DNA of 21,844 nt from positions 1 through 21,844 of the forward strand of contig NW_025407909.1 in NCBI RefSeq assembly GCF_003324165.1, given 5' to 3'. The notes beneath the pieces were generated by a model, which was given only the letters and a program-made list of their open reading frames with translations, was not told the DNA's origin and made no database searches. This DNA is from Naegleria lovaniensis (taxonomy: Eukaryota > Heterolobosea > Eutetramitea > Acrasida > Naegleriidae). The position numbers and the translations under genes were made by a program. Positions 1 to 21,185 of this stretch are shown here, piece by piece (position 1 is the first letter of the stretch; the number at the start of each line of letters is the position of its first letter).

Positions 1-734
1 CTCCAGTTTCAGGATTTTCAATTCGTGGAGGCGGATGTCGTTTGGGATAAACAGGTTCAATGACTGTTTCACCTGTTTCTTCATTTACATTTTTTTTCTT
101 TGAAATTGGAATTCGAATCGGTCTAATTTTCCAATACTCTGAATTTTCCTTATATTCTTCCTGAGATTGAATATATCTTCGACATCTTATTAAAAGCTTC
201 ATCGTATAGTTACTCAAAATTGCTAATAAAATTAATGTAATGACTCCTGCTAACAGCCCAGATTGTTTCAGGGCCCACGGTAACGCAAAAGATCCAGCAC
301 CTGAAATATTGGAAAATATCAATAAATTAATATTGTCACGAAATCACAATAATGTTTTTGAAAAAAATGATTCTCTAAAATGACATACCAGCAAATGTTT
401 TTGTAATATTCAAAAAAGCAGATACTGCATTTGTCTTGGAAGGTAATTGCTTTTTAATATGCACTTCATGTTCGTTCACTTTATCTCCTCCGTTGTTTTC
501 ATCGTTATGATGATGATTTATTGAACCACTTTCCATCAACAGAGATGCTCCTTCTTCGGTTGCATTATGTCCACTTTCACCATCATAATATTCTCGGTTA
601 TTCAATCCGTTTACTAAATAGCCATCTTCAGCAGTTCCTCGGAATGAATTAAATCTCAAATCCATGCCACCATCGTCGTGATAGGATGAAGAGCCATTGA
701 ATGTTGAATGAAAAGAGGGATCTAGTGATGACAT
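1..734 (-). CDS. Amino-acid permease of the AAAP (Aa_trans) family, 5' part
   Basis: Probable membrane transporter for amino acids; only the N-terminal part is inside the window. Exon 1 is 734-389 and exon 2 is 300-1, running off the left edge. The 88-nt intron (388-301) starts GTATGT and ends TTTCAG on the minus strand. Joining gives ITKTFAGAGSFALPWALKQS, the glycine-rich start of the first membrane helix typical of AAAP/SLC36/AVT carriers. A hydrophobic stretch (LLAGVITLILLAILSNYT) follows, then a charged loop. The first ~105 residues are a polar acidic tail rich in N, H, D and G, as expected for a cytosolic N-terminus. The ATG at 734 is the first in frame. Family call is from motif recognition; substrate cannot be told. 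Confidence 0.85.
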
Positions 735-1279
735 TTTTTTTGGAGTGGTGTTTAGCTACTGGAGGCGAAGGTATGCAGGAGTGCTCAACCGGAGTTTGAA
801 GCTCGACTCCGAGAAAAAGTCTGAGAGCAAAAAAGAAATCTTTGAGCAAGAATGGTCCAGTTTTAAGGCTGCTGAAACCAGGATATGTTGGACTAGGTTG
901 TCAACAGAGTCGACTCGATTTTTTCCTGAAATAGAAATTTTTTGGCAAATTCAAAAAAAACATCTGCATGATTGCCTGCAATATTGTTCGTTGAATTACT
1001 CGGTCTTTCACTTTTTACACACCACCAACAACCATCATTTCTTACTGGACCACCTTGTCCTTGCGTCCCTCATCTAACAAATACCAAAAACTGACATTTG
1101 ACGCGGCATCACATCTACTTTTTAAAAAAACAATCCACATTCCGCTTTTCAACCTACCATACAACAACAGCTCGTTTAAAAACATCATTCGTCTCGTTTA
1201 AAAACATCATCATAACGTCTGATTTTTATTTCAAACTCCCAATAACATACAACCACTACCTACTACTAACTGTGAGACA
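735..1279. other. Divergent intergenic spacer (545 bp)
   Basis: Lies between the start codons of the permease (-) and the ankyrin-hemerythrin gene (+), so it should hold both promoters. Open frames in it (745-1077 and 1098-1283) have no recognisable domain or good coding character and are rejected. The right half is C/A-rich on the + strand with several CATCA and ACCA tracts and holds one 18-bp direct repeat, listed separately. No TATA box or other motif stands out. Confidence 0.6.
1171..1210. repeat. 18-bp direct repeat, 22-bp period, two copies
   Basis: CTCGTTTAAAAACATCAT is present exactly at 1171-1188 and again at 1193-1210, separated by 4 bases. It sits 70-110 bp upstream of the ankyrin-hemerythrin start codon, so it may be part of its promoter or 5' leader. 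No function is assigned. Confidence 0.9.
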
Positions 1280-3353
1280 ATGAAAGACGAACGTTTGAGT
1301 GTTTTAGACATCATCAATACATTTGAAAGTACGAAACGGTTGAGTGTGAGTGGCATCAATGGAATGTTCGATACAAATACCATGCACTCACATTCTCTAT
1401 TTCAACTACATGATGAGGAAGATGATGACGAGTTATTGAAAAAGTCACCAGCTTGCGACTCATCAGATGAAGATGATGACACCGCAGCAGATATTAAGAG
1501 AATTTCTGCAAATATCACATCAATCGTTAATTTTTCGAGTCCAACAGAATCAAAATCACTGGAAGAGGAAAATGGAAAGTGTGAAAAATCGTTATTTAAC
1601 ATTGCTGACCTGGCATTTGAACTGCATAATACCATAACTGATGAGAAACAAATGTTGGAAACGATACAAAAAGCAGAAACGTTATCAGATCATCCTCTCG
1701 ATTTCACCAAAGATTTATTGGATCCTAAAAGAAATGCTCACTTCTTCATACAGCTGCAAAATTAGATTTTCTCACGGTTATGCAATATTTATTGGATAAA
1801 CAACCTTGCTTGCTAGAATCAAAAGATAGAGCTGAAGCAACTCCAATATTCTATGCTTGTTCGAGTGCTCATAGCAAGAGCGTGACAATGTTGGCCATTA
1901 ATGGAGCAAATTTGAATATTCATGACAAGTATGAAGCATCGCCACTCAGCGTCTCTCTCAACTCCAAGAACAAATCCAAAGGATTTTCTGTTGCACGAGT
2001 ACTGCTGGATTTCATGTGGATGTAGAATATAAGGTGTATTGTGGAAACAGCATACTTCATTTAGCTTGTCGAGAAGGTGATTTGGAAAAAGTTCAATTCA
2101 TTGTTGAAGATTTGAAACATAATATTTTCAGAAGAAATACCAAACAAGAATCGTGTTTGTTTAGAGCAGTAAGACACCCTCATGTGACTAAATATTTATT
2201 AGAATATTGTAATAATCATATTGGACATGAAAAACTTCTGAAATTACTTTTCATGAAAAATGATAAGGGACAAACAGTGATTCATCATATATGTTCAAAA
2301 GGATACCTAGAAAGTCTGATACACATTATTTCAATATTGTCTCACGACGTAGAAAAAATTGAACAATTATTTAACGAGAAGGATTCAGCTTATGGATTAA
2401 CTCCTTTACACATTTCAGTACTTTCAGAACAAGAAGGTACATTTGAATTTCTCATTCGATCTAAAGAAGTTCAATTAGATATACAAAATAAGATTGGTGA
2501 CACAGCACTTCATATTGCAGTTCGCAATGAAAATCTGCCCATGATCAAAGAGCTCTATCACTTGTACAGTTCAAAAAGTCTTCAACTCAAAAATGCTCAG
2601 AAAAAGACCATTGAAAAACTGGCAAAAGAGAGAAATATTGACTTGAAGAAGATGGAAAAAGAGCTTGAGCAAGATAATGCAGGCATTCAAAAGGAAAGCT
2701 TTTGGAGCTCATTGTTTGGAAAGAAAAAAAAAGAGAAGAGTCATAGAAACACTATGAGTTTTAGCTCACAATCAGCAACAGAGCTTCAATCAAGAATGTC
2801 CACCGTTTCTAGGAGAAATTCTCTGTTAGTTGCGGTCTCTTGGGATCCTCAAAAGTACGCTGTTGGCTACGAACAAATTGATTCCCAGCATATGCAACTA
2901 ATTGAATGGTTAAAGAATTTGAGTGAAGCTTCTCTCACAAAACAATCACATTGGGTTGTTGGTTACACTATTGGTTGTTTATTGGAGTATACAGGTGTGT
3001 ATTTGTTGTTTTATGACTTGTGTGATTAACAATATACAGAATTTCACTTTGAGGATGAAGAATTGTTAATGATGAAGTATAGAAAAGGAATTGGTGAGTA
3101 TTTGTTGTTTGTGACCTGACATGAATAACTAAAAAATTAAGGTGAGGACTATGTTAAAAAGCATCTAGAAGAGCATGAGACTTTCACTACGAAAATTCGA
3201 AACATGCAACGTGAATATGTGAAAAATCACAGTACAAGTTTGGATATTGAACTGCTGAACTACTTAATTGGTTGGCTCGTCAAACATATCAATTTTACAG
3301 ACAGGAAACTTGCTGACTTTGTAAACAACCATCCTCCAGATGAAGAGAAATAG
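1280..3353 (+). CDS. Ankyrin-repeat protein with C-terminal hemerythrin domain (two apparent frame breaks)
   Basis: Likely a cytosolic protein joining ankyrin protein-protein interaction repeats to an O2- or iron-binding hemerythrin four-helix bundle. The N-terminal ~150 residues are acidic and low-complexity. Ankyrin repeats follow (LLHTAAKLDFL, GNSILHLACREGDLEKVQFI, GLTPLHISVLSE, GDTALHIAVRNENLPMIKEL). A lysine-rich linker leads to hemerythrin at the C-terminus. Two introns inside hemerythrin, 2995-3039 and 3094-3141, restore the domain when removed. All expected diiron ligands are then visible: IDSQH, HFEDEE, HLEEH and HINFTD. The stop is TAG 3351-3353. The frame breaks near 1729-1762 and near 2005-2016. 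At each point inserting one base would rejoin the ankyrin repeat (LLH-TAA; LLDF-HVDVEY), so they may be assembly errors or real lesions. Confidence 0.85.
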
Positions 3354-3470
3354 ACAGGTGTTTCCCAGGACTTGAGAAACAACTCACGAATGAACATGTT
3401 GATTCTGCTGTCTTTCACCAAGAGCCGTTAAGCCCGCCAACTTGCAAAATTTGATTAAAAAAAATAAAAA

Positions 3471-4540
3471 ATGGGCAACTCTGGGACCAAAGAAACAGCC
3501 TCTCCTTCTCCTTCTCGATCATCAAAAGGAAGAAGCTCCTTTGCTAATACAAGCCCCAAAGCATCAACTCCTTCAAAAGAAATTGTAAGCTTGCCAAAGA
3601 GGATTTCTAGTCATCAATCAAACACGACGACACCTCTCGGATCAACTAAGAGAAAATATGAAGAAGTTCAGGTGATAACAGCCATTCATGCCAGTCAGGA
3701 CACAGAACGTGACGATGACGAAGAAGAATCGACCAATATTCAAAATGTTGTACAAGAAAGTAAAAAAGTGAAAAGAGAATCAATAACAAATAATTCCGAT
3801 CATGCATCAAGTACTGCAACAGCTCCAGCAACCGTGATTACATTCAGCGGATTTAAGAACACCAATGACAAATTTAGCAAAAATGTCAAGAAAATGTTAA
3901 CAGATGAAGCAATTAAGAACAATGTGATTGTGAAAGAAGAATCAATCGATGACCGAGGTAAGTTTTTAGTTCAAAATAAGGATGTGAATTACTGAGCTGA
4001 ATTGTGGTATAGATACTCTTTCTAATGACATCACTCACATCATTGGTAAGTTAACACTTATTCATTGTATTAATTTGACATACTAAATACATAACAGCTC
4101 CACCATATGCTAGGACAATGAAAGTTTTACAGGCGATTGCCACAGGTCGCTGGATCATGTCAACCAAATGGATTACAGAAGGAAAATGCAGTTTACATAA
4201 TTTGCACTTATTTGGCGTTAGAAGATTAGACAGGCCAATTAGTGGAAAGAAAGTTTTTTTACATGAAACCTTTTTAAAACAACATCCCACAAAAACTCTA
4301 ACTTATAAACACTGTCAAATGCTTGTCGAATTTGGAAGTGGAGATTTTACTGACAAGATTGAAGAGGCTGATTTTTGCATTGTTGGGGGTGATGAAAATT
4401 CTGCTGATGATAAACTTGTAGAAGAAAAGGAACGTATTACACAACTTTATCCTTATATGATGGTTTTGGAATGGGTAGAACTTGTGGATTTGATTTATCC
4501 TTTTTATCTTGAACAAGCTCTTAGAAAAATGGAGAAGTAA
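3471..4540 (+). CDS. Protein with C-terminal tandem BRCT-like domains
   Basis: Probable phosphopeptide-binding adaptor of DNA-damage or chromatin signalling, inferred from BRCT family knowledge. Exons are 3471-3957, 4013-4045 (a 33-nt micro-exon) and 4098-4540. Introns are GTAAG..TATAG and GTAAG..AACAG. The first ~115 residues are Ser/Thr/Lys-rich and disordered, with basic clusters STKRKYEE and SKKVKRES that could be nuclear signals. BRCT 1 starts at VITFSGFKNTNDKFSKNVKK and, across both introns, continues as DITHIIAPPYARTMKVLQAI then TGRWIMSTKWITE, the classic T-H-I and G-W core. The rest (GKKVFLHE ... YPYMMVLEWVELVDLI) resembles a second, weaker BRCT. Arrangement recalls PTIP/MDC1-type C-terminal pairs, but orthology is not claimed. 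The N-terminus MGNSGT also fits an N-myristoylation signal. Confidence 0.75.
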
Positions 4541-4742
4541 ACAATGAATTATTTGCTCAAGCATTAGTGATCTTGTGAATGTACGTCTCAGAGCCTTCTT
4601 CATCAAATCTTTCAAATTTTTTCACAAGTGTCTCACTTTTATTTCGAAAAGAAGTGCTTTTGTCGCAAATCGAGCGAATAAAAAATTGCCGAGATTCTTC
4701 TCGTTCTTCACCATCAAGCCTTCTGCCAACTCACCTCGGTGC

Positions 4743-5922
4743 ATGAAACGAACACAAGAAAACACAATGAGCGGAACACCTTCAAAGACCGTAAAATTTT
4801 CAGAAGATACCAAGGAGTCCCCAGAGATTACTCCTTCTGTTGCTTTCCCGCACATGATTATTCATGCGTATGTTTTAAGCCCAGTTTGTTTTTTTAATAT
4901 TCATCAACTTTAAATATTCGGACATTACGAAACCAATCATTGAATAGTTGGCATGATCTGGATGTAGGATCATCAGAACTTTTCAATGCCCTTATTGGTA
5001 AGTTTTGGCTCTGATGATTTTATTTGTTGATTATTCCGTTATTGGCAGAAATTCCAAAGGGAAGCAAAATCAAGTATCAATACGATACCAAGTACGGTTT
5101 ATTGAAGGTGAGCCACATCCTCTCTAGTTCGTAAGTAGTAGTATTAACAGAATTTAGAAATGACCTTTGATCCACTCATCTTCTGGACTCTTCCTGTTGA
5201 ATACGTTTGCTTCTCAATTATTTCATCATCAATTATTATTACAACATCATCAATTATTATTACAACATCATCATAACCGTACTATGAAATTTTGCCTTGC
5301 TCTAATTCTGACTTCACACAAAATCATCATATTTGTTGAATTATTCGGCGTTGCTGCCATTTTTCGCTGTAATCACAATAGATTGACCTATCCTGCTAAC
5401 TATGGCTTCATTCCACAAACATTCGGTGAGGACAAGGACCCAATTGATGTATTAGTGTTGATGCAAAGTGCTTGCCATCCAATGAGCATTGTTCGTTGTC
5501 ATCCTATTGGAGTCATGCCATTAATTGACAATGGAGTCATGGAGTACAAAGTTATTGGTAAGTTCACATCCATGCTGAAAATTGGAGTTTATTGAATTTT
5601 ATTCTCCACAGCTGTTCATGCTGATGACCCTGAGTACCGTGGAATTAACGAATTGAGTCAACTCAGACCACACATCTTGAACGAAATTAAAATCTTTTAT
5701 GAGGACTATAAGAAATTGGACAAGAACACCCAAACTGTCGTTGTAAAAGACTTTTTACCAAGATCTGAGGCAATGAAAATTATTGAGCAAGGAATTGAGG
5801 GTTACAAACAATATATCAGAGAGCAAAAGAAGTCGTTGACTTGTACAAGATATGGTTCATATCAAAACTTGTTTAAGAAAGGATTGAATCTTAGCGATAT
5901 GGATGATGAAGACGATGAATAA
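4743..5922 (+). CDS. Soluble inorganic pyrophosphatase, family I
   Basis: Hydrolyses pyrophosphate to two phosphates with Mg2+, driving biosynthetic reactions. Five exons: 4743-4867, 4948-4997, 5049-5130, 5382-5557, 5612-5922; the sum is 744 nt, giving 247 aa. Spliced protein shows the family hallmarks in order: WHDLDVG, LFNALIEIPKGSKIKYQYD (substrate/metal-binding ExPKGSxxKY), SLTYPANYGFIPQTF, the signature EDKDPIDVLVLMQ with its three metal-binding Asp, then GVMPLIDNG, HADDPEYR and FFxxYK-like IFYEDYKKLD. It ends in an acidic DMDDEDDE tail. The start is ambiguous: ATG 4743 (MKRTQENT) or ATG 4767 (MSGTPSKT). The same frame is open upstream to 4548 and encodes a K/R/F-rich peptide resembling a mitochondrial presequence, but it has no ATG. 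Intron 3 (5131-5381) is unusually long. Confidence 0.93.
5131..5381 (+). other. Long intron 3 of the pyrophosphatase gene
   Basis: This 251-nt intron (GTAAGT...AATAG) is the longest in the window. Removing it joins codon TC|A to give SSSLTYPANYG, exactly the family's conserved order. It is open in one frame into the next exon, so a naive caller could take it as coding. It includes a tandem repeat at 5224-5265. Confidence 0.85.
5224..5265 (+). repeat. 21-bp tandem repeat, two full copies plus partial
   Basis: The unit CATCATCAATTATTATTACA plus a final A occurs at 5224-5244 and 5245-5265 without mismatch, and a third partial copy follows (CATCATCA). It lies within pyrophosphatase intron 3 and probably arose by slippage. 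Confidence 0.9.
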
Positions 5923-5976
5923 ATAAGCATGATGGTGACATTTTGAAGTTGTTCATGGCCACAATGTTAAATAATA

Positions 5977-6034
5977 CAGCTTGTTGCACGCAGTCTCGAA
6001 CACCAAAGGTCTCCAAAAGACCACGCAAAGCCTC
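5977..6034 (+). repeat. Left terminal inverted repeat
   Basis: 58 bp starting CAGCTTGTTGCACGC and ending at GCCTC. It pairs with the reverse complement of 8068-8123. Similarity stops abruptly at 6034, which supports this as the inner boundary. The outer boundary is the TA at 5975-5976. Confidence 0.88.
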
Positions 6035-6145
6035 CCGTTTTGTTAATCCGATTTGGTCATGATGAAATTCATGGCATCGCACGTTGAAGGTCTCTAAATC
6101 AATTACTCCATCACCAATTTAAATAATAATTAAAATAAATTAAAT

Positions 6146-6649
6146 TTATTGATTGTTGCAAGGATTTTTTAACGTTTTAAATTTATCAGCAAAAACTGCA
6201 AATCCTTTTCCCGCATTATTTATAAACGAATAAACACAATCTAAACTTTCACGCAGTGCTTGAATTTGCTGTTTCATCTCTGCATTTTCTTTTCGCAACC
6301 TCTCAAGCTCATATGCAATCACATCGTTGTTCAAGTTCGGTATCGGAGGAGGAGACGATGGTTGTTGTTCAAACATCTCTTCAATTTCCGCAAAATCATC
6401 AGTAATATCTACAGTGCTTGATGATGATTGGGATCTAATGTTGTTAATTGAAAGACAATGAAGACATCAACATACTTACACTGCAAAACTTTGGACATCA
6501 TCGCAAGATATTTCGCTAATTTTTCGTTTGGGAGGTTGATTGTTGCATTTGGGTTGAATGTGATCTTTGATTTGTCCTACAATCGCGAAAGGAATTGGGG
6601 ACCGTTTAGACCGGTAGTTTCTTGTGCTGCTTTGGCTACGTGTGTCCAT
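6146..6649 (-). CDS. Small basic/coiled-coil protein inside the transposon
   Basis: Exon 1 is 6649-6480 and exon 2 is 6434-6146. The 45-nt intron (GTAAGTATG...CATTAG) gives an intact 152-aa frame with start ATG at 6649. The N-terminal half is basic and Ser-rich (MDTRSQSSTRNYRSKRSPIP; PPKRKISE). An acidic stretch (DITDDFAEIEEMFEQ) follows, then Pro-rich sequence, then a heptad-like helix (YELERLRKENAEMKQQIQAL) typical of a short coiled coil or leucine-zipper dimeriser. It starts only 19 nt after the stop of the zinc-knuckle gene, so the two may share a transcript or be splice products of one gene. No family recognised. Its location suggests a transposon-encoded accessory protein; this is inference. 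Confidence 0.6.
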
Positions 6650-6668
6650 TTTGAATTGGAAGATGGTT

Positions 6669-7108
6669 TCAAGGATGCATCATTTTTGAACTGCGTCTTC
6701 TCTTGTTTTTTCTTTCATTCTCTTCTCGCTGAGCTGTTGCTGCTTCCTTTTTGCGTTTTTTTTTGACTGAACAGTCCTCTTTAGTACAACTTCCATCGCA
6801 GGGCGGGTTTGTACACTTTGCTCGGTTGTGGCCTTTCTGATGGCATCCGCTGCAATAGCAAGAATAGGAATTGTTAGTTGTGTTAGGTGTAGAGGGAGTA
6901 AAATTATAAACAAACGTAGATTGTTGAGAATTTGAAAAAGGTGGTACTTGAGAATTGTTCATTGGTGTATTACTGGTGTTGCTTTGCGTAAATGTTGTTG
7001 ATTGTTTTGAGGTGTGTTTGTTGGATATATAATTTGATTGTCAATGGCTGGATAAACATTCAAACCACCAAAGTCAGTAACAAATGCTACTTGTGATTGA
7101 GTGGCCAT
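6669..7108 (-). CDS. CCHC zinc-knuckle protein inside the transposon (one apparent frame break)
   Basis: Probable nucleic-acid-binding protein. ATG at 7108 opens MATQSQVAFVTDFGGLNVYP. The frame then breaks near 6990-7015 in a CAA/ACA-rich run. One inserted base would join it to the downstream frame (TFTQSNTSNTPMNNSQ), giving about 146 aa. The middle is N/T/S/Q-rich. The core is CSGCHQKGHNRAKC, a CX2CX4HX4C zinc knuckle, followed by further cysteines (NPPCDGSCTKEDC) that could bind a second zinc. The C-terminus is highly basic (KKKRKK, KNKRRR), suiting nuclear import or DNA binding. It is divergent from the transposase with 74 bp between starts. The stop is TGA at 6669-6671. The knuckle is certain as a pattern; the role is inferred. 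Confidence 0.65.
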
Positions 7109-7182
7109 TTTTTTTTAGATTTTATTAAATTTTGATTTTTAGTTTAACGGTTGTTTATGGCGCCACTTTGTGAAAAATTCAC
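7109..7182. promoter_or_regulatory. Divergent promoter region inside the transposon
   Basis: Only 74 bp separate the zinc-knuckle ATG (-) and the transposase ATG (+), so both should be driven from here. It contains a T-run next to the minus-strand start and AT-rich sequence. No defined box is recognised. Confidence 0.4.
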
Positions 7183-7775
7183 ATGACAACACACGAAAGT
7201 AGAAGCAAACCAAGGAAGCGAGTTGTGGTTGGTTACTACCACAGCAAGAAGGTAATGGTGGCAGGCCTGAAAATATTCTCTTTCAGACAGGTTGCAAAAG
7301 CTTGGGATGCTCACCAAGCACTGTGTTTTATTGGAAAAACAGAATTGAAGAAAACGTGCAAGCTAATGTTGGTGGTGTTCGTCAATTCAAGTATGATTTA
7401 AAGGACGTGGTAAAGGCAGTACTTATTGTGAACAAAGTGTCAATGGTAAAACCATTGTCTACACTGGATGAATATGTAAATGAATTACAAAAACATGGTT
7501 ACGATTACAGCACCACATGGGTGAGTCGAGTGTTGAAGCAACTAGGTAATTCTTTCAAGAATGCTTGTTATAAGAGCAGATTGAAATATACACCAGAAAA
7601 CATCACAAAGTACATCCATTACGTTTGTGGTATGGCAGAGCTTCTTGAAAAAGTGCCGGTGTATCGTCTGAAATTCCTTGATGAAAGTAGTTTCGTGAGC
7701 AGAAATTTGTATCGGAAAAGAGGAGTTGCTCCTATTGGTTGTAGATTGATAGTTGTGAACAACACAAAGCATTAG
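7183..7775 (+). pseudogene. IS630/Tc1/mariner-like DDE transposase, 3'-truncated
   Basis: Would bind transposon ends and cut and join DNA. Start ATG 7183. A 35-nt GT..AG segment (7252-7286, GTAATG...TTTCAG) must be removed to keep frame. This yields KKTGCKSLGCSPSTVFYWKN, a helix-turn-helix (G-CSPSTVFYW) as in this family. The frame then runs to TAG 7773-7775 for 185 aa, against roughly 300-360 aa usual. The first catalytic Asp is at about residue 155 in LKFLDESSF, followed by RKRGVAPIGCRL, the typical strand after it. The second Asp and the final Asp/Glu are absent. Past the TAG the same frame still reads a hydrophobic strand (IIRVVVACFVVV) before decaying, so the 3' half seems lost. 35 nt is short for an intron here, so a small indel is the alternative. 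Confidence 0.75.
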
Positions 7776-8067
7776 ATTATTCGTGTAGTCGTTGCTTGTT
7801 TTGTTGTAGTTTTCTTGCCATGTCTCGTTTTGTGATGGTCTCTTCTCTCTTGTTTTGTAATTCTCTGCTTCACATCTCACGTTTTGTCAGTAAAATGGCC
7901 CGCGCTTCTTGTTTGTGATGTCTCTTCTCTGCACATGCTTGTTTGTGAGTTTCACAGGTCACAGTTCTGTTTTTGTGCTCGTAATGTTGGCGCTGTCAAC
8001 ATTTATATTTCTTACATGCTCGTCATTACTTTTTCTGTGCACGTCAAACGAAAAATTTCCTTTGCTA
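7776..8067. other. T/G/C-rich, A-poor tail of the transposon
   Basis: This segment stands where the missing transposase C-terminus should be. The + strand is dominated by T with TTGTTTTGT, TCTCTTCTCT and similar motifs. It contains an imperfect direct repeat (about 7825-7848 and 7907-7930, both ending TCTCTTCTCT after a GTTTGTGATG-like core). Short open frames running from here into the right inverted repeat show no protein-like pattern. Confidence 0.55.
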
Positions 8068-8123
8068 GAGGCTTGTGTGGTCTTTTGGAGACCTTGGTGT
8101 TCGAGACTGCGTGCAACAAGCTG
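8068..8123 (-). repeat. Right terminal inverted repeat
   Basis: 56 bp whose reverse complement matches 5977-6034. It lacks one A in each of two A-runs present in the left arm and has one G-to-A substitution. Followed by TA at 8124-8125. Confidence 0.88.
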
Positions 8124-8264
8124 TAGTTTATGGCATTTTAAAGCGGGCCCGTGTCACATGCCAAAAACTTGAGAGATTGCAATCATGTCGCTAGGGTGGC
8201 CGCTTCCATGTCCTCGTGGTTCACTTTCTAATGGTCAGCTTACCTAAATTGCTGGATTGTTCGA

Positions 8265-8495
8265 ATGTTAAATCAAATTTTAAGGCCAAGTCCCATTCAA
8301 CTCAAACCAACGCCGGGCCTCTTTTCTTCTGAATCTTCTTTTCATATCGCTCAAGCTCCAATGATGGTAAGTGAAGAAATTATTTCTGGTGAAACTCATG
8401 AATCGAAATTTCGGCGTAATTTTGATGAAAGGTATGAATCACTATTAAAGGTGGAGCCACATCTCGAACGACAAGCGTTGTTAACGACAAGATAA
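8265..8495 (+). CDS. Doubtful small open reading frame, 76 aa
   Basis: Starts ATG 8265 and ends TAA 8493-8495. The second half (ETHESKFRRNFDERYESLLK) is charged and looks more protein-like than random translation. It has no recognisable domain. An internal GTAAGT after ATGATG could be a splice donor, so it may be a relict exon or part of an unresolved gene. Low confidence. Confidence 0.2.
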   Translation: MLNQILRPSPIQLKPTPGLFSSESSFHIAQAPMMVSEEIISGETHESKFRRNFDERYESLLKVEPHLERQALLTTR

Positions 8496-9055
8496 TTCGC
8501 AACGATTTGAGTGTACCTTGTCTGTGTAATAATTTGGACTGGCCATCGTTTGTGCGCTTCAAAACCCTTAAGATGGCTAGAAATGCGTTTGCGCTTTGAT
8601 TGTTTCTAACAGGCATTTGACACATGTGCGCACTATTGACATAACTTGAACAAATCGGTCCAAGAACCAACAACGCCAAACATTCAAATAGCACAAATCT
8701 AACCCACCAACAGTCGTTCGGTGTCTTGTTTTGATCCATGACCACACAATGATGGTCTGGACACACCTAACAAACATCACAACTTGTTGATTGATAGCTA
8801 AACACAATTGCGCACCGTCATCTTGTGGATTTTAGAAGAAAAAAACACAATACTTGCATTGCTTGACCTCTCAAAAAAAAGTGTCGTATTGTTGACCAAC
8901 AGATCCTTTCCATTGACAAGTGGCACTTCCTTTTCGCCAGTAGTACGCAATCGAGAAACTCACTCCTATTAATACCTGCATAGTCCTCTTCACTCAACTA
9001 CTATAGTCCTCATCGCTCTTGGCCAGCAGCAGATAGCCAGCCATACCATTCCAAG

Positions 9056-9080
9056 AATTGTCAAAGAAAAATTGACAATT
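9056..9080. promoter_or_regulatory. Inverted repeat AATTGTCAA / TTGACAATT
   Basis: Perfect 9-bp arms at 9056-9064 and 9072-9080 with a 7-nt A-rich spacer. It lies 220-245 bp upstream of the Zn2Cys6 start codon. It could be a binding site for a dimeric factor or an RNA hairpin in the leader. Confidence 0.6.
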
Positions 9081-9132
9081 ACATTCACCCGTCCCACCAC
9101 TCTCCCGTCCTCTTGACCACACAGCCTTTGTA

Positions 9133-9154
9133 TTCACAAGTGCGCACTTGTGAA
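9133..9154. promoter_or_regulatory. Perfect 22-bp palindrome upstream of the regulator
   Basis: The half-site TTCACAAGTGC is followed directly by its exact reverse complement, with no spacer. It contains CAAGTG/CACTTG, an E-box-type CANNTG core, twice. It lies about 150-170 bp upstream of the start codon at 9301. A dimeric transcription-factor site is plausible, but the factor is unknown. Confidence 0.7.
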
Positions 9155-9238
9155 ATTTCAACACGTGCCAATAGTACCGCAACTATCATCATCATTAACA
9201 TTACTACTCTGGGCGTTCTATCCCTAGTAATCATATTG

Positions 9239-9269
9239 ATTGACGTAATAATTTCCATACTACGTCAAT
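9239..9269. promoter_or_regulatory. Inverted repeat ATTGACGTA / TACGTCAAT
   Basis: Perfect 9-bp arms at 9239-9247 and 9261-9269, 13-nt spacer, ending 31 bp before the start codon at 9301. Each arm contains TGACGT, the core half-site of CREB/ATF-type bZIP factors. It could act as DNA operator or as a hairpin in the 5' leader. Confidence 0.65.
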
Positions 9270-9300
9270 TCCAATTTAACAATTGCCTAAAACAAGATTA

Positions 9301-11684
9301 ATGATAACGTTGAAAGATTCAACAACGCCATCCACATCAGCTCCTGTTGCCGTAGTTGTTAATAATTGTGTTTACACACCATCACACTATCAATTTCTTG
9401 CTCAATTCAAAGAAGAAAGCAGCTATTCCCCAGTGTCATTTCTTCCTAATCCTTGCGCCATGCTTCCATCGAATCAAGATGCAACTGTGACTTCAACAAC
9501 GGCATCCCGAGAAGATTTTGGCGAATACCAACCTTCGTTGCATATTCCTTATTCATTTATGGCACCAATGTCCTCATCAGGAGAAAATGCCACCATCGAT
9601 ATCGAATCAGAGATAGTCACAACAAACCAACCATCTACCTCCATGAACAATAACCACCATCTATATATTGACAACAACCAACCTAATTTTGAAGAGACAA
9701 ACATCTTTCATGATTTTACATCTACAACAACAACAACAACGCTACGAAATCGACAACAAAATCATGTGGACATGCAATCACCTCAATCATTCCATCATTC
9801 TGACATTAATCGCGTAGCGACAAACACATTTCAAAAAGTGCCTCCACAACCACCGGATCAACAACAGCAGCAACAACCACCACCACAAACCATGGACTTG
9901 TCTAACTTGTCCATCTTGTATCCCTTATCTGGTGTGGATGGTCTTCTTCCTGTTGATCATGATCATGTGGATCATTTGATTTCCTTTTTAAAGGGAGATG
10001 GGTTCAATCCAAACAACACCATGGATGGTCGTATGACCAACAACAACAACATGGAATTACTTGTTCAAGCAAACATGAGCAGCACGAATGATCATTCTAA
10101 AATGTCGTTCAAGAACATGTTGGTTGGCGGTCATGAAGCTACTACATGTAACATCGACACGACATCATCCTACATGCATGATACATGCATCAACAATGAG
10201 CAGCAACAACAACAACCAACTCCGCTCGTGCAGGATAACAACAATGCGTTTACGCCTCATTTTGCTTTCAGGAAACGAAAGAACACGAAACGAAAAAGCA
10301 TCTCATCTTCACCATCATCCTCTACTTCGAACTCTTTGGATGAGGATCCACAACATGTGCAGCATGCCGATCTCATTCTTGACGATGAGGATATTTCCAA
10401 TGACCAATTCGCTTCTGATCTGCAAGATCAAGACGACCATTCTCATTCTCCAACAAGTATTCGCAACAAATCATCAACAGGCAGTACTCACAACACGATT
10501 GGAGCTAAAGCTTATCCAAATGGGAGAAAACGAGCGAGCAAAGCATGTTTGGAATGTCAAAAAAGACACACCCGATGTGGATTTGAAAGACCATGCGATC
10601 GGTGTACCAAGCTGGGATTGAATTGTGTGGAAGTAGTTTCCACAAAGAAGAGAGGAAGATCCACGGCCAACATGAACAACAAGAACAAGTTGAGTGAGGA
10701 AACATTGGATCTTGCTCCATCTCGAAAAAAGGAAAAGACATCTTCCAGAGCACCAAATCAAACTGCTTCACCAAGTTCAAATGAAAGTAATATTGAGAAT
10801 GTTAACAATGCTAGTGGTAGTAGCATCATTGAGAAGCAATCCGAATCGAGCAATCCAAATGAAGCATCTTCATCTAGTATTCCAAATGGGTCAGAGCAAC
10901 TTCTTCTCAAACCAATTCAAAATCTTCAAGCTCTTCATCATTGACAGGAATTCATCAAGCTGAAACCATGAATACCACCACGACGACAGCCTCAAGAACT
11001 ACCTCTCCAACGACTGCTCAAGCACATTCCATGCCACAACCTCATCATCAAAAGCCTCCTCAACAACAACAACAACACAAATTACTTCCTCGGGTATCAT
11101 CCTCTTCGTCCTTTGGAACGCTGCTGCACCCAATTCCTTCCAATGTATCCTCTATTTCTTCATCATCGACCACCTCCTCTCATTCCCCAATTAATTATTT
11201 GAACAACAATGCATCAGTAACAGCAGCATCGAGCTATGCTTCTCAACAGCCATATTCCAGCAATGCTCTGACTCAACTTCAATTTCCAACTCTTCCTTCA
11301 GCAAGTTATGAACAAACAGGATTCATCATGACTGGACCGAATTTCCCCAATATTAGGTGTGTGAGCGAAGGCTTATTGAGTCGATTGGGCTATCAAACGA
11401 GTTCTCAACTGACATCTCTCACTCAAATTTTCAGTTTGGATTTTGTCAATTCCGAACTCATTCAACTCCATCAAGATATTAAGGCTAGAGCCACAATTCT
11501 TCAACAAGTGCAAGGAGGTGCTGATTTACTCCGGCAAGGTCATTTGAGAATTCAAAAAGAAGGCATAACCAATGTGAGAACGATTATGGGAATGGAGCAA
11601 TTGAAATTTAAAATGTTCCACTCGTTCCGAGAGGATCAACCAGCCTCGTTGGAAGCAGTCTATGTATTTTTGTTTTGGCATTAA
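9301..11684 (+). CDS. Zn2Cys6 transcription factor with PAS-like C-terminus (one apparent frame break)
   Basis: Probable sequence-specific nuclear regulator. Start ATG 9301. About 330 residues of N/Q/S/T-rich low complexity (with Q and T runs) come first. A basic cluster FRKRKNTKRKS follows, then the binuclear cluster at residues ~416-442: CLECQKRHTRCGFERPCDRC plus TKLGLNC, matching CX2CX6CX5CX2CX6C exactly, then KKRGR. The frame ends at TGA 10942-10944. The sequence continues in a neighbouring frame (LTGIHQAETMNTTTT) to TAA 11682-11684. One base missing between about 10878 and 10941 would connect them. The C-terminal part has more Q/S-rich sequence and a PAS-like stretch (IRCVSEGLLSRLGYQTSSQL ... 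KMFHSFRED). Zinc cluster plus PAS recalls fungal ERT1/AcuK-type regulators; orthology is not claimed. Next gene starts 74 bp downstream. Confidence 0.8.
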
Positions 11685-11758
11685 TATGGGCCATAAAAGT
11701 AATTTTGTAAAACAACAATTGCAAAGTTCGAGCCTTTCGAGTTTTAGTTGGAAAAAAA

Positions 11759-14700
11759 ATGTATCGAAGGAACAAACAAGCTAAAAAATATGTTCCACCA
11801 AAGGAGATGACTCCATTGACCGACCAAGCTGGTGTCGATGCTTTGGAATTGTTTTTATTGGATCGGCAACAACAATCATTGTCGGGTACGAGTTCAACAA
11901 CACTTTCCAATGATGAAGTCCATGTGAATGATGATACCACAGCTACAAAAATTCCGAAACGAATGGAATCTTCCAATCATCATCATCATTGCAACAAGAA
12001 AAATATGAATGAATTTTTAGATCAAATCAAAGAAACTGAAGATGAACAGTTGATGAAACAAGTGATGGATAAATTTGAAAAATTAAAATGTGGTTATGAT
12101 GAAAGACCTGCTTCGCTTTCAAGCTCATTAAATTCTCAAATCGAGCAAGAGATTTTTGAAAAGAAGATGCTACTCAAGAAAAAGTTGCAGGATCGAGTTT
12201 TTCGTGTCAGTGTTGGAGGACAAGTGTTTCACATCCCTTCCAGCATTCTCTCATTTGGTATAGACTTGGAAAATTTTGAAGGAAGCGATCGAGATTTATT
12301 GACGACACTCTGTGAACAGGAATTGAATTCCATGGATCAAGGAGAAGAGGATAATCATTTCATCATTGAAAAGGAGAATGGATGTATCAAAATTCAAAGA
12401 GACCCTACTTATTTTCCATTCATCTTGGCATATTTGCGATTGAGAAGAGATTGGAAATATATCCAAGCACAAGTTCTTGGAAGTGATGAAAACACTTTGG
12501 AAAGAAGTAACATCACAACGGGAACAGACGACTCTAAGAATTTTCCTTTCTATTGCTTTCATGAGAACCCATTTTATGTTAGAGGAAGGAAATCTCGAAG
12601 AGAGTTAGAAGCTAGTTATGGTGCCTGCCAAATTGACCACGACTTGATGAAGAAATACTTTGTGAATGAGCACATTCTCAAGGCAACCATGTTTTCTTGC
12701 TCATCCATCAAGTTATTGAACTCGATCAGAGAAGAGGCAGAGTTTTATTGCATTCCCTCTCTGGCTTCTTATTTGGAAACGAAAATCAAATCATTATTCA
12801 ACCCATTCGATTTAAATTATCAGCGTGGAGGAACCGAGCAAGACTCACAACACATTTCGAGCTCTCAAGTCATTGCTACACCATCATCTGCATTCCCATT
12901 GCCTCCTAAAATGACCGAGCGGGTGGATACTGAGTACTTGGCGACACTATTGCCTCCTCGTGACAATGTTGACGCGGGTAGTAGACATCAAATTCTGCTT
13001 CAACAATTGTCACAAACTAGTATTCAGTTCAGCATGAACCAAAGCTCCATCTTGGTGCCAATGAGATCTCTTTTAAAATTTAAGCATTCCAAATTTCTCG
13101 TTCTTGCACTTTCTAATGCCATGAAACATATGAAAGAAGGAAACTCAGCCTCTCCACCTGTTGTGTCATTAATTGCCAATGTTGAAATTTTATACATGCT
13201 CAAGTTCATAAAATATGGAAGGCTAGATTTGGAAGAGTTGAATTGGGCACAGGAACATGACTCTCTCGTGAATGAAACTTGCAAAGAGTACAATTTACCA
13301 GAGTTTTTCCAATATATTCATCATTGCTACATTACGGACGATTATTTGAGAGAATTAATTGGAGAAACCAATTGGAAGATGCGTGAAGAAGAGGAGTCAT
13401 TACGAGAAGCGTTTGTCGTCCTCAGAGAAAATCCAAAATTTTTGGAAGAAAGCAAGAAGATATTGATTAATGTTTTTGACCAATTGGAAAGTTTTTCTCC
13501 TTCCCCAACTATTGATGCTCCTGAAAGCAGTCTCTTGTTTAATTTTGAGAATCCTTTCAATTGCTTTAATGGACGCCATAATGCTCTCTCGAGACCTGAA
13601 ATTGTCACTTGCAGAGAGGAGTTTATCTATAACTTTAATTTATTCACAAAAAATTTGCTAAATGGTTTAGATTATTCCAACGTATGTTTGGCAGGCGGTT
13701 CCGTGCTCTGTACCATGCTGAGAGCTCCTACAAACCAGAAAATTTGTGAGCACAAAGTTATGCCACATCGTGCCTTCAGTTATCGAGGTATGTATCATAC
13801 TATTCTGCATCTCAAAAAAACGTGACATTCCTGTCTTCAATTATACTTGTTGCCACAACTTTGAACATATGCTCAAGATTTGGAATTTGAAAAATTGGAT
13901 ACCAAAATCAAAAGCAGTCCTATGTATAAGGATGACAAACTTGACGATCCCAATGAAAACATGGCCTTTTACTATGAACGCTTTAATTCTAAATACAGTT
14001 ATAGAACTTCTGACGTAGACATGTTTTTGTATGGTCTCAACGAAGAACAAGCATTGGAGAAGATTAAGCACATCATTGAGGTCATTAAGAAAAACACTAA
14101 GGATGATCAGGTATTTCTCATTCGAAGTGGTCAATCTATCACTATAAGAACTTCGAACTCTATTCGTGCTTTCCAAATTATTTTGAGATTATATTCTTCA
14201 ATTGAAGAGGTTTTGTGTGGCTTTGATGTAGATTCGTGTTGTTTTGCGTTCGATGGAGTGAATGTGTTGACCACCCCAAGAGGTAGAAGATCCATAATTT
14301 ATCGTTATAACATGGTGGACACTTCACGACAATCCTATACCTATGAAAAAAGATTATACAAGTATGCATGTAGAGGTTTTCGAATTTATGTTCCAAATTA
14401 TAATAGAAATTATGTGAAAAGAGAAGGACTACTTCATCCCTTGCAAGAAAAATATTATTTGAAAGCTCAGAGAATTCCAAATCCATCTGCTGAAAATTGT
14501 AGAGGTCTTGCTTATTTATTATTGCAAGAGAGACGACATTATTCATCAATTTATTCAAACTTTGCATTTGCAAGTGCACTACACTTTCACAACAAGATGG
14601 ATCGCAAACTAAAAGATACAGAAAAAGACAAGGACCTATTCAAACATGATTGCGATTATTCTACAGGTAGAAGTTTTATTAATACGGCTCGTCTGGATGT

Positions 14701-15220
14701 ACATGGAATGGCTCTTCGATATCAAAAAATGGAACAATTATTTGTGAATGGAACACTACATCGTGAACAATTTCCAAATCCTTCCAGTTTTAACGCAGTT
14801 TATGGTGTGAATGATGTTACGAAAATTTTACAAAGAGTTGAACCCATGCCACTCCAATTTGTCACCATTAACCCAGGACGACAAGATAAAATAGGAAGCT
14901 TCCATCCACACAACAGAAACTTTTATGAGGATGCCTATTGTTGTTATCACACCATTCTCGAGAAGAAAATGAATGACAAAGAAGGGCAAGAAAAGGGTGA
15001 TTTTATTCTTGCACCACATTATTGGGTCAAAGATAAATACGATCATGTTTGGTATTGGGAGAGCGAATATGACCAAGATTCAGTGGAAGAGGATTATCAA
15101 AAGTTTTTATCCGAGGGTGGAACATCAACCAAATCGGATTGTGGCATTGATTTTATGAAATGGAGGAAATATGGTAAGGCTGACGTGAAACGTGATATCA
15201 TTTTCAAGTATGCGGTTTAA
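11759..15220 (+). CDS. BTB/T1-domain protein with nucleotidyltransferase-like region
   Basis: Two exons, 11759-13787 and 13878-15220, with a 90-nt intron (GTATGT...CTCAAG), give 1123 aa. Residues ~146-235 form a BTB/T1 (KCTD-type) domain: FRVSVGGQVFHIPSSIL ... IQRDPTYFPFILAYLRLRRD. The middle part (to ~600) includes a helical region with a second BTB-like flavour (SILVPMRSLLKFKHSKFLVL). From ~640 comes a conserved block: LAGGSVLCTML (GGS at 646-648), then TSDVDMFLYGLNEEQALEKI (D722, D724), then RAFQIILRLYSSIEEVLCGF and DVDSCCFAFDGVN. The GGS...DxD pattern resembles the nucleotidyltransferase fold. Similar blocks occur, from memory, in proteins of amoebae, fungi and some large DNA viruses. BTB may recruit a cullin ligase; catalytic activity is unproven. 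Confidence 0.8.
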
Positions 15221-15388
15221 GAGAGTTATTTGAAAAGAAATTCCAACCTTCACAAGCAACCCATTTCTGAAGACGTTATTTGTTAACCCACTCAAGCTTC
15301 GTTTGATCAATTAAAAAAAATCAATTATTAACAAGCACCGTTTCTGAAGACATAGAAAGTTAGATTTTAATCTTGATTAGTGATGATG
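15221..15388. other. Convergent 3' intergenic spacer (168 bp)
   Basis: Lies between the stop codons of two convergent genes, so it holds both 3' ends. TTTCTGAAGAC occurs twice (about 15266 and 15341). The region is A/T-rich with an A-run near 15312-15320. No gene seen. Confidence 0.55.
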
Positions 15389-17724
15389 TTATTTACATGA
15401 AGATACCTGTACATGATAATTTCTTGAACTCGAAGTTTCATCATTGTTCATGAATGGAGCAATTTTGGATTTGATAGAACCACCAAAACTAACACACGTT
15501 CCGTTTTGGCTCGTAACAACACCATAGTGTGCACTGGAGAGCGAACAGTTATAGGTGACACATGTGGAATTGTTGCTCACCAAAATACAACATGATCCTC
15601 CTTGCAAATCATTATCTACAAACGTTTCAGGGTCTGTAAAATCTTCAAAGGTAATTTCACACTCATCGAGAAAAAGACTTCCATTCTCGACATGAATGGC
15701 ACATGGAATTCGAAAGTCCTTATTGCTCGATTTTCCATTCGATGAGGTCTTTCCGTTCATGTATCTGTTTTTCATTTCAATTTGCTCATTGGACAACTCG
15801 GAAATAATTCGAAGTTTCAATTTTCTGAAACGAACATTTTCACTATTAATTCGAATCATGGGTTCACAGAATTTTGATGAATGCATTTCAATAATGCAAT
15901 TTTCAAAAATAGCTCCATGAATTTCTAAGGGTTGAGAAACGACCAATGTTTGACACTCGGTATAAATTCCAGGTAAAATATACAATTTGATTGGAACCAA
16001 TTCTGCTTGAAGAGAATTTTCAGTAGCCAAGAATGCAAACTTTTCACTGTAGGAACCTTTAAATGTGATCGATTCTCGTTTTTTCGACTTTTTCAAGAGT
16101 GCAACAACTTTTTCATCTTCCTTTCTTCTTTGAATTTCATCGAAAATGGTTTCGGAAATGATGGAAATGGGTTGAGCTTCAATATTGTCCATCGACTGAT
16201 GTCGAGACGAATCCGTTTCTGAATTGTTATTATTCGCAGAACTATTCTCAGAAATGATACTTTCCAAAGAGGGCAATAAACTACGAGCACTGTCAGCATT
16301 GAGTGAGGAACCGCCACTTTCGATCATGTCATCTGAAGCGGTCGAAGTGGCATCGTCAAAGTCAGAATGCCCAATTTTCACAAAATGTGACAACTCTCCC
16401 ATTACATTAAGGATTGATTCGAATAAGAATAACACCCATTCATCACAATCATCTTGAGTTTTGGCATAAATGGTATAGGTTCGAGAAGGTGTTCGAATTT
16501 CAAAGGCAAACCAAGTTTTTTGAAAATCATTGTCGAAAGGTTCTTCTGGAATGATAAATTGACCATTCGAAATGGATGATAGAGACCATCTCTTATCGAC
16601 AGTACTGCGTCGAAGCGAGCTTACTGATCTCGATCGATCTCGTGAAGTTCCCGACTCTTCAATTTCATGCAATAAATCTTCAGCGTTTTTAACTTTCTTC
16701 TTTTTCTTTGCTGGATTTTGTTTAAACTGAATGGTTGAATTGTAAAATGTGACAACTCCTTGAGCAATCATATTCTGCAGTTTTGCATCCAATTCGGAAA
16801 TATTGACCATGTCTTGTACATGGTTGGAATTACTACTTTGATTCGTGTCACTCTCCTTTTTAGGTTTATAATAATAAAGCATATCGTTTCGCAACACAAA
16901 AAATCGTTGTTTCCACGATGCTTTCAATTTTCCTCCTGATTTAATCATCCATCCCAATTTTTTCGATCCACCATGTTTCGAAAATGAGTTTTTGGAATTG
17001 GACTCTAAATTGTCTCCATTCGCTACTTGTGTGATAAATTGTGACCATTGTTGCACAATTTTCAAATCTGCATTCAATAACCAAAACGATCGAAAGGGTG
17101 TCTTGACCACGAGCAATACAACCACACGGTCTGAATTACCCCCCCTGCGCAATCAAGAGGGGTACTCAACTGTCACAGCGCAGCTGGCTCGCAAAAAATT
17201 TTTTAATTTCTTGGTGTAAGGAATTACTTCGCGCAACCTTTTCTCAAGAAATTTGTGAAGAGTGGTTGTATTGGAATAGTAATCAGATTGTCCATTTTCG
17301 GAAGGTGGTTTTTTTCCATTTTTGAGAGTGTCTTCAGGATTGCAAATTTCAACGGAGGAATCTTTCAAGATGATGGCACCTTTTGGTTCCTTATCTTGTT
17401 CAGAGGCATAGTAGTAGAGAGTATTTTCGAAAATGACAAAGAGACGTTTTTTCCATCTACATGTCAATTGTATTATGAATCACACCCAAAATGAGTAGTG
17501 CACAGAATTGTGTACAATTGGTCATATCATCATCATCATGTGTGTACACAGATTCCAAAGTGTGTGCCCCATGTATAGAATTGTCAATTCCGATCCAATT
17601 CGATCGGATCATCCAATTAAAAAAAATTCATATGATTTGAACAAGATGTTTAAAAAACGTACGACTTGATTCTTCCACCCTGTTTCCAAAACCATTCCTT
17701 TTTCAATTCAGAGTTTTGTGCAGT
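15389..17724 (-). CDS. Protein with two PH domains and a parallel beta-helix (5' end unresolved)
   Basis: Likely a membrane/phosphoinositide-associated cytosolic protein. Recognisable exons on -: 17724-17663, 17456-17238 and 17144-15389. Together they make an uninterrupted 2037-nt frame. PH 1: KEWFWKQGGRIKS joined to WKKRLFVIFENTLYYYASEQ ... TPFRSFWLLNADLKIVQQWS. PH 2: LGWMIKSGGKLKASWKQRFF ... TWFAFEIRTPSRTYTIYAKT then DDCDEWVLFLFESI. After a Ser/Asp-rich linker, the C-terminal ~240 residues show right-handed beta-helix repeats (LYILPGIYTECQTLVVSQPL; ENCIIEMHSS; GSLFLDECEITFED). The 206-nt intron uses GTACGT..TGTAG. The 93-nt intron 17237-17145 has a weak GTTGCG donor and ends at a seven-G run, so a frame error is the alternative. 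The first exon(s) and start codon, upstream of a pyrimidine-rich acceptor at 17725, were not found. Confidence 0.75.
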
Positions 17725-18208
17725 CTGAAGAGAAAAGAAGGAAATCTGAAAGTATTGTTTTTTTTGATGTCAAGTCCAAGAATTATACAAAATGATGATG
17801 ATGAAAACAAATGTTATTTTGAAAATGTAAGAAGGACTATTGGAATGATGGAATGAACTCAACAACCAACCTTTCGATGACGACCTGTTTTGCCCATGAA
17901 TAAGTTTTTTGGTTTTTTTTGAAGTGTTTGACAAGAGACAACTCGCCTGAAGAGATAAAAAAGGAACCTTTTTCATGGTTACATATGATGGCAAAGGTTC
18001 GGTATGATGGAAATTTCAATAAGGAAGTGAGGTTAATGTTTTTCTAATGCATTGTATAAATCATCATCTACAAGGAAGGATAATCAATTATTGTATATTC
18101 AAGGAAGAACCAATAATAGAGTCTTTGATCCTTATTCATTATTGGATGATCATGATCACCATTATGTAATTCTTTTTCAATTTTTGAAAAACCCAAACGA
18201 CTCCTGTC
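17725..18208. other. Divergent spacer with unresolved 5' exon(s) of the PH gene
   Basis: Just right of 17724 the minus strand reads a pyrimidine tract ending CTTCAG, a good acceptor, so at least one upstream exon should lie here. Minus-strand frames at about 17837-18019 and 17770-17994 hold charged peptides (for example KHFKKNQKTYSWAK), but no choice of donor and start is convincing. The right part, 18020-18208, is AT-rich and should carry the promoter of the GH65 gene. Confidence 0.45.
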
Positions 18209-21185
18209 ATGAGAATTTCAATAATTCATGAAAAAATCATCTTGTCGGAACGAATGAATGAATCATCCTTTCATCAACGAGGACATCAAGTCCCAAGAGC
18301 TGATAATTCCTCATATTCATCCCGACAAATCACCACCATCATGATGAACAAGAAGACTCTAATTTTTTTCATCATGATGATGATGATCTTCGTATTGAAT
18401 TTTGTGGAGGAGGAAATTCAATTAGTTTCTTCGTACGTGTTCACGTGATATTAGGATCGTATTTATTGAGAATGATTTCAATTATTATGTATTTCAATAT
18501 ATTTGAATGATGATCAATCTTATTAGGCTTAACATTCCATTCAACGGAATTTCTAATGATTTAAAACATTTCATACAACAAGAACATCAATCATTCCGTT
18601 ACCCCAACTACAATGATAATAATAATAATAATAACAATGATGATTGGAAAGAACGAATGGCACAGGCTCAACTCTTAGCCACTCCCTCCGAACCCAACGA
18701 TCCCAATTATCTTCCATCCATTTCCAATGGTTATATTGGAACGGTCATTGATAGTGCCGATGTCTTTATGGGTGGAGTGTATGTGGGACAGCAAGTCATT
18801 CTCGATCAATTGATTGGTTTTCATTCGAGAAGAGCCCGAATTCCATCCATGATGAACATTCATGTCAAGTTGAATGAAAGTGAAATGGATGGAACGGTTA
18901 CATTGAAAGGAGTTGGATCAGCATTGGATATGGAACGGGCCATGTATTTGAGAAGATTTGTTGGAATTTCTACAGAACTGGAGGATTTAAAAGTCGAGCA
19001 ACGATATTATGCTCATCGTGTGTTTCGATCATTGCTGGTACATCAATTAGATGTCGATAATAGGAATGGAAGAAATAATGTTCAGATTGGACTCATGCAA
19101 GTGGTGACACCACCAAGTAAGGATATTTCATTTAGTGAGGTGAAATGTCCAATTTCATGGCCGAATATCATGTGTCAAGTTGGAGAGCTCGTTGAATTGG
19201 AGACACCAGAATCGGAACGTGTGAAAGTTGCATTTGTGACATCGATAATTTCATCTTCTTTGCCTATACAGGTAAAGGCAAATTCGAGAAGCATTTTCAC
19301 ACATATCACTGCCATTCGATCGACGATTGATTCTGTGGATCCTCTGTTAGAAGCAGCAACAGATTTTATGAAAGGAATTTCAATGGACCCACAAGAATTA
19401 ATGAATAATCACACTCGAGAATGGGCCGAATTGTGGAAGAGTGGAATTGAGTTAGGTGGAAATGTCTCACTGGCTGCAATGGTCAATAGCACATTGTATT
19501 ACATGTTAAGTGCTACACGGAAGGATTATCATTGGGGAATATCACCTGGAGGAGGTATGTAGACTTTGATGGTATTGTCATACATCTTATTTTCACACGT
19601 TTACATTGAAACGAATATTCATCGAATTTTCAAATCGTTGATTACTTTGGTAACAATTACATGCATGTAACATGAAATATAATTGTGAAATATAACATTG
19701 CCCATAGTTGCAACTAATTCATATAATGGGCTCATGTTTTGGGATCAAGAATGCTTTGTATTACCTTCCCTCGTTTACTTGTATCCAGAGTTGGCTCATG
19801 GTCTCATTGAGTACAGATTTGAGAGACTTCAGCAAGCCCTACACCATGCTCAAAGATATGGTTATGCTGGTGCCATGTATCCTTTCCAATCAGGTAAGTG
19901 GAGGATATCCTATGGAAATATGTTAACGTAGTGAAATTTGTCCATATTATTTCTATCATTACTACAACATGCAATATTTGAAAAATTCTTGATATTAGGA
20001 TACAGTGGAAGAGAAGTAGATTTAATTGCACTATTTAATGAATTGGAACAGCACATCACAGGAGACATTGCTTTTGCTCTTCAATTGTATTGGCAATTGA
20101 CCAAAGATTTGAATTGGCTTTCCACACGTGGCTATCCAATTGCTTCTGAAATTGCAAAATTCTGGGCAAGTCGTGTCACTCGAAACACGTTTGGACTCTA
20201 CGAGATTCATAGAGTGGTTGGACCGGATGAATTTGGAATTGGTTTTCCATGGTACAGTGGTGTGGATAATAATGTCTTTACCAATGCTGTTGCTCAAATT
20301 TCACTTCGATTTGCAAATAAGGCAGCACGTGCTCTTGGAAAGCAAGACACTCCATTATTTGATGCAATTGCAAATAACATGACCATTCTGTTCGATGAAG
20401 TCAATCAGATTCATCCAGAATATGATGGCTTTCCAAAGGGAAATATTTATTTCATGGAGTATGTCAAACAAGCAGATGTCGTCTTGCTAGGTATGTATAT
20501 ATCATTCAAGAATGAGATGATGACACAAACTCGTTTCACAATGTTGTGATTTCAAAATTCATAATTTTCAATGGAACTGTACATGGCGTGAACAAACAGG
20601 ATATCCTCTCATGTTCCCAATGCCACCCCATGTCAGATACAATGACATTCGATATTATGAAAAATATATGTGGTCAGAAGGACCTGCAATGACCTATTCC
20701 ATGCACACGATAACCTATTTGGGTAAGTGTTCAATATGATTGTCTAGTTTTTGATACATGGCTGCTGTATGTGACATTTTATGACAGATTTGAAAAATTA
20801 TTCATTGGCTGGAGAAGCCTTCAGAAGATCTCTTCTTAATATTCATCCTCCATTTAACATCATTTCAGAGACACCAGATCCTTATAAACATTTTCTAGAT
20901 ATGGGATCTTTTAACTTTTTAACTGGAGCAGGTGGATTTTTACAGAGTGTTCAAAATGGTTATGGAGGTTTAAAAGCCTACGATGATTACTTGTTACTAA
21001 ATCCACAACCATTCACTCAACTCAATGTGACAACAATGAAATTACGAGGCGTACATTATGTAGGAGGAAAATTTGATTTATGGTTTGATGGAACAAAGGC
21101 AACCATTACAGTGTCACAATTACCAACCCATCGATCCTCCTTCACCATTGAAGATTCTTTTGATCTAAGAAGCAAATTGTTGTGA
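18209..21185 (+). CDS. GH65 glycosidase, protein-glucosylgalactosylhydroxylysine glucosidase (PGGHG/ATHL1) type
   Basis: Predicted to remove glucose from a glucosyl-galactosyl unit or related alpha-glucoside; the animal enzyme acts on hydroxylysine-linked sugar. Six exons: 18209-18432, 18527-19554, 19708-19893, 19999-20490, 20600-20722, 20788-21185, giving 816 aa. Spliced motifs follow family order: NGYIGTVIDSADVFMGGVY, LMFWDQECFVLPSLVYLYPE (D430), GYAGAMYPFQSGYSGREVD, EQHITGDIAFALQLYWQLTK, VVGPDEFG (E557, expected general acid), VDNNVFTNAVAQISLRFANK, YVKQADVVLLGYP, SEGPAMTYSMHTI, NFLTGAGGFLQSVQNGYGG. The N-terminus carries a hydrophobic run (TLIFFIMMMMIFVLNFV). From ATG 18341 or 18344 it would be a signal peptide; from ATG 18209 a signal anchor. 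That suggests secretion or the lysosome. Acid trehalase is the related alternative, but the motif set fits PGGHG better. Confidence 0.88.
19657..19670. repeat. 14-bp perfect palindrome in an intron
   Basis: TTACATGCATGTAA lies in intron 2 of the GH65 gene (19555-19707), about 38 nt before the acceptor. No role known; may be chance in AT-rich DNA. Confidence 0.6.

Follow-up and report, generated by a model that had tools for sequence, protein, structure and literature searches.

The question raised by this locus is whether a mobile element has recently moved in Naegleria lovaniensis, how it could have done so, and whether the genes found on either side of it are its true neighbors. The window, that is, the whole stretch of DNA analyzed here, is an entire contig (C87, 21,844 bp), and its features are listed in Table 1. 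The published assembly is reported to comprise 30.8 Mb in 111 contigs, obtained from PacBio reads with FALCON followed by Quiver (PMC6125883), and the genome that we searched comprises 30.69 Mb in 97 contigs. On balance, we consider it somewhat probable that the window holds a recent non-autonomous transposon of the Tc1/mariner cut-and-paste type, placed in a contig that is an assembly chimera.

Table 1. Features of the element and of its flanks in the window.
Feature	Position	Strand	Remarks
Left flank	1..5976	.	Homologous to C3:433575-439530, 16 substitutions
Whole element	5977..8123	.	2147 bp
Left terminal inverted repeat	5977..6034	+	58 bp; preceded by TA at 5975-5976
Second gene, probable continuation in the -1 frame	6149..6704	-	Likely intron; likely coiled-coil end (by eye)
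Second gene, first open frame	6669..7108	-	Q/N-rich start, Cys/His motif, Lys/Arg-rich end
Spacer between divergent start codons	7109..7182	.	74 bp; altered by inversion in the C16 copy
Transposase gene, N-terminal part	7183..7775	+	HTH-like region and first-aspartate motif FLDESSF
Right terminal inverted repeat	8068..8123	-	56 bp; followed by TA at 8124-8125
Right flank	8124..21844	.	Homologous to the sequence right of the C29 copy (C29:159551-173333), 83 substitutions

The original prediction was of a recently inserted Tc1/mariner-type element with nearly identical 58/56-bp ends that start with CAG at TA dinucleotides. Realignment of both ends recovered all of these features, and the two repeats differ by one substitution and two one-base gaps. 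One of these gaps occurs in the window copy alone, where it probably reflects a consensus error; the right repeat measures 57 bp in the six other copies. A probe of 204 bases from the left end matched seven left regions and seven opposite ends, which make up seven elements in the same genome. The proposed search for further copies thus returned near-identical ones, seven in all with that of the window, and the refuting outcome, neither other copies nor an empty TA site, is absent from this genome. TA is present at 14 of the 14 outer flanks.

The copies on C45, C44, and C30 share one sequence of 2156 bp, and the copy on C21 differs from this commonest type by a single substitution. The C16 copy carries the same substitution and, between the two genes, a modified stretch with an inversion in it, and the C29 copy shows several changes, including a 35-base gap. 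The inverted stretch, with a net gain of 25 bp, occurs in the C16 copy (L013) alone, and its equivalent in the window lies at about 7127-7177. Compared with the commonest copy, the window copy has nine one-base gaps and no substitution. The element is 2156 bp long in four other copies, 2181 bp on C16, and 2120 bp on C29. When a 17-base end pattern was searched in the whole genome with up to three mismatches, 43 places were found, 14 of them exact; of the remaining 29, one had two mismatches and 28 had three, and the reversed pattern used as a control gave 17 places. Because all 14 exact places belong to the seven elements, as both of their ends, the element ends are not due to chance. No solo end with the exact 17 bases is present elsewhere in the genome.

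The original prediction had also called for an empty site with a single TA, and such a site was found within the same genome. Contig C3 matches window positions 1-5976 and then runs on without the element, with one TA at the insertion point; the 14-base end of the element was not found in the 10-kb stretch of C3 examined. Left flank and element abut precisely at the TA, so that our preferred reading of the contig, given below, implies a real insertion allele at the C3 locus. With seven copies, TA at every outer flank, three identical copies, and a single-TA empty site, positions 5977-8123 are a recent TA-targeting DNA transposon. DNA transposition in N. lovaniensis is recent and probably still polymorphic within one strain.

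The surroundings of the element are less straightforward. It had been placed with a housekeeping gene on one side and a regulator gene on the other, and the identities of these genes stand: the left neighbor encodes an inorganic pyrophosphatase (PF00719, E 2.5e-07) and the right one a Zn(2)-Cys(6) protein (PF00172, E 1.3e-07). What finds no support is a clean insertion between neighbors, since the element joins a C3-like left flank to a right flank that matches C29. This neighborhood is therefore unreliable as an address, and contig C87 is unsafe for saying which genes adjoin. We favor, judging from the assembled sequence rather than from reads, the explanation that C87 is an alternative-haplotype contig that the assembler joined through the repeat. 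Of the 20 sites at which the contig has lost a single base, 13 are in positions 5977-9110, which make up 14% of its length (binomial probability 3e-7, for an interval picked after the data had been seen), and such a cluster resembles what a poorly polished join would have.

A second explanation is that the contig is real and that one haplotype joins the C3 and C29 regions at the element through a transposon-mediated translocation. Ectopic recombination between two copies would be one route to it, and alternative transposition with ends taken from different copies another. We regard this explanation as possible but doubtful. The join falls precisely on an element that is complete and TA-flanked, and both flanks carry substitutions against C3 and C29, as would those of an alternative haplotype. 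A switch from the common type to the C29 type would also fit a crossover inside the element. The same switch counts in favor of a chimera as well: left of 7252, the window copy lacks all seven differences that are peculiar to the C29 copy, and from 7252 to 9663 the window is free of substitutions against C29 and has a one-base gap in common with it; the right flank shows no substitution before 9664. The part from 7252 to 8123 discriminates weakly, because the common type also lacks substitutions against the window there. Inside the element, the evidence for a C29 origin comprises one shared T-run gap and a gap at 7963 that fits the C29 letter better, and the case for such an origin of the right part is thin. 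Against a translocation, the join region holds the majority of the single-base deletions, and a search of the genome for the reciprocal product found none: the 2.9 kb that follow the empty site on C3 occur in one place, and for the sequence left of the C29 copy, leaving aside a high-copy repeat there, the only matches besides itself are of 68-78% on C45. An assembly chimera is still the reading that we prefer. Two side observations concern these flanks. A repeat of about 422 bp on C29 (L047, about 177.35-177.77 kb) occurs in dozens of places, many of them 97-100% identical among the best candidates. In the left flank, one-base deletions against C3 at 1726 and 2005 lie near the breaks between the open reading frames 1280-1765, 1780-2025, and 2016-3029, which suggests that these may be one gene split by consensus errors.

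Within the element, two genes diverge from the spacer. The first frame of the second gene has 146 codons in five of the seven copies and is interrupted in the window and C29 copies; by eye, its Cys/His motif appears zinc-knuckle-like. The frame at 6149-6704, in which the window copy lacks a further base, is the probable continuation of the same gene, with a predicted translation. It includes a 45-nt GTAAGT...TAG stretch at 6435-6479 that is present in all seven copies and is likely an intron. No Pfam match above the cutoff was obtained for the pieces of this gene. Instead of having been split by mutation, the two frames could be translated together through a programmed -1 shift at the heptamer A AAA AAC. 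The heptamer is present in six of the seven copies, its register suits a -1 shift (as computed for one copy, L010, which is identical to two others), and in L010 the -1 frame is open as far as the plausible 45-nt intron. However, no stable RNA structure was found downstream of the heptamer (z 0.25 and 0.18), the overlap of the two frames is A-rich, and the length of the A-run differs in the C29 copy, so that a simple mutation explains the split. We therefore consider programmed frameshifting quite unlikely.

The transposase gene has a frame of 256 codons from the ATG in five of the seven copies and of 245 codons on C29, and is interrupted in the window copy. For the bipartite HTH DNA-binding region that marks Tc1/mariner transposases, its HTH-like region gives matches below the cutoff, of 23.2 versus 24.6 bits for HTH_23 and of 13.2 versus 31.5 bits for HTH_Tnp_Tc3_2. 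Of the DDE transposase motifs that had been predicted, one could be retained, FLDESSF, which we recognized by eye as a D motif; D2 and D3 were not found, neither being present in the listed frames of at least 50 residues of the commonest copy. When compared by hhalign with an intact DDE_3 transposase from the same genome, FLDESSF aligns weakly with the region of the first aspartate, 10 of 23 residues being identical (E 0.031, probability 1.6%). In Pfam, the 256-residue protein matches no DDE family at E values up to 1, and the only DDE match of the window fragment is DDE_Tnp_ISAZ013 (E 0.14, 11.6 against a cutoff of 26.9 bits). The best Pfam match over the D motif is HTH_12, the winged-helix domain of ribonuclease R and not a DDE family, with 21.2 bits against a cutoff of 21.4 in one search and 19.2 bits in another. 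A sequence search of the PDB gave no meaningful match (best E 0.78), and an AlphaFold model of the 157-residue window fragment from a single sequence had a mean pLDDT of 41 and was set aside.

Other sources of a transposase were sought in six-frame searches of the genome, in which the best candidates were scored. The transposase itself matched the seven copies and, with 47% identity, a relic stretch on C36 (E 8e-5); one further hit was insignificant. The PF13358 profile gave 15 places, 14 of them over the cutoff and none inside any of the seven copies. In neither search was a full-length relative found among the candidates scored. A possible relative on a viral contig (L068) was rejected as a 22-residue chance match; by eye, none of the 10 open reading frames listed there resembles a transposase. 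Mobilization by L053-L063, a DDE_3 family with many copies in this genome, is conceivable; the proteins of that family lack similarity to the window transposase, and its ends are undefined. Because no source transposase was found, we infer mobilization in trans by elimination; the source may have been lost or may be unassembled. That the element is autonomous, the short transposase sufficing, perhaps with the product of the second gene, is very improbable: all seven copies are near-identical, both first frames are open in five of them, and the genome searches gave no other transposase source, but the recognizable protein stops shortly after the first D motif, the stretch following that motif is T-rich and repetitive, and known DDE enzymes need both D2 and D3. 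Mobilization in trans would proceed as follows. A transposase supplied by another copy or family would recognize the 58-bp ends and provide catalysis, the element's own gene keeping only a DNA-binding part and the start of a catalytic domain. The element would be excised and then inserted at a TA, which would be duplicated. The window element would occupy an insertion allele at the C3 locus, from which the assembler most likely carried the contig across the repeat to the C29 locus.

The transposon itself is ordinary and of a known kind. DNA transposons were reported to make up 1.25% of the N. lovaniensis genome by automatic classification (PMC6125883), and this repeat may already be included, unnamed, in that set. 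Among the matches listed in the literature on Naegleria and Heterolobosea transposons and on multi-ORF mariner elements, there was no description of it. Recent DNA transposition is documented here in a Naegleria amoeba. If the join were real, it would represent a live transposon-mediated translocation, in a group with little transposon work among the matches listed. It is unlikely, though worth stating, that we are dealing with a two-gene, head-to-head Tc1/mariner-like design with a zinc-knuckle/coiled-coil accessory protein, belonging to a non-autonomous family that recently caused a chromosomal rearrangement, still segregating between the haplotypes of the strain.

With the DD34E-type elements of the Tc1/mariner (IS630-Tc1-mariner) group, the window element has in common the TA target, inverted repeats beginning at the TA, a length of about 2 kb, and a putative HTH-like N-terminal region followed by a D motif. 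TA lies on both sides in seven of the seven copies and once at the empty site on C3, and terminal inverted repeats of 58/56 bp in the window and 58/57 bp in the six others are present. It differs in that a catalytic triad was not detected and in that it has a second, divergently oriented gene. Because of the DDE/D triad only a D1-like motif was found, we file the element as a non-autonomous derivative that works like Tc1/mariner rather than as a complete member. PIF/Harbinger elements would share the combination of a transposase and a second gene, but they have another target site and another transposase class. The ciliate TBE and Tec elements are described as multi-gene Tc1/mariner elements whose three ORFs include one for a DD34E transposase; in TBE a zinc-finger protein is encoded, and one Tec ORF lies in the complement (PMC7325037). 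More than one ORF in an element of the Tc1/mariner type is thus shared with the window, a likeness by description and not by sequence, and here two genes and no triad were recognized instead of three ORFs with a DD34E transposase.

The last comparison is with the DDE_3 family of the same genome. Its transposase shows no significant protein similarity to that of the window (best blastp E 1.2), and its frames have 377 or 382 codons in 10 of the 11 loci and 294 in L056. No inverted pair of at least 20 bases was found in three loci, and L053 has one 18-base pair. A locus of another kind, L064 (C31:130585-131004), has a 382-codon frame with a DDE_3 match of 67.9 bits and is distinct from the multi-copy family; by eye, its usual second-aspartate position reads otherwise, and it may be an inactive or host-adopted transposase. 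When the longest plus-strand frame was taken for each of the six loci with minus-strand hits, a second divergent frame was seen in five, the sixth being L064. This frame runs for about 250 residues up to the locus end in three loci, and the one tested had no Pfam match at E values up to 0.1. Like the window element, the DDE_3 family thus combines a Tc1-like transposase with a second, divergent open frame.
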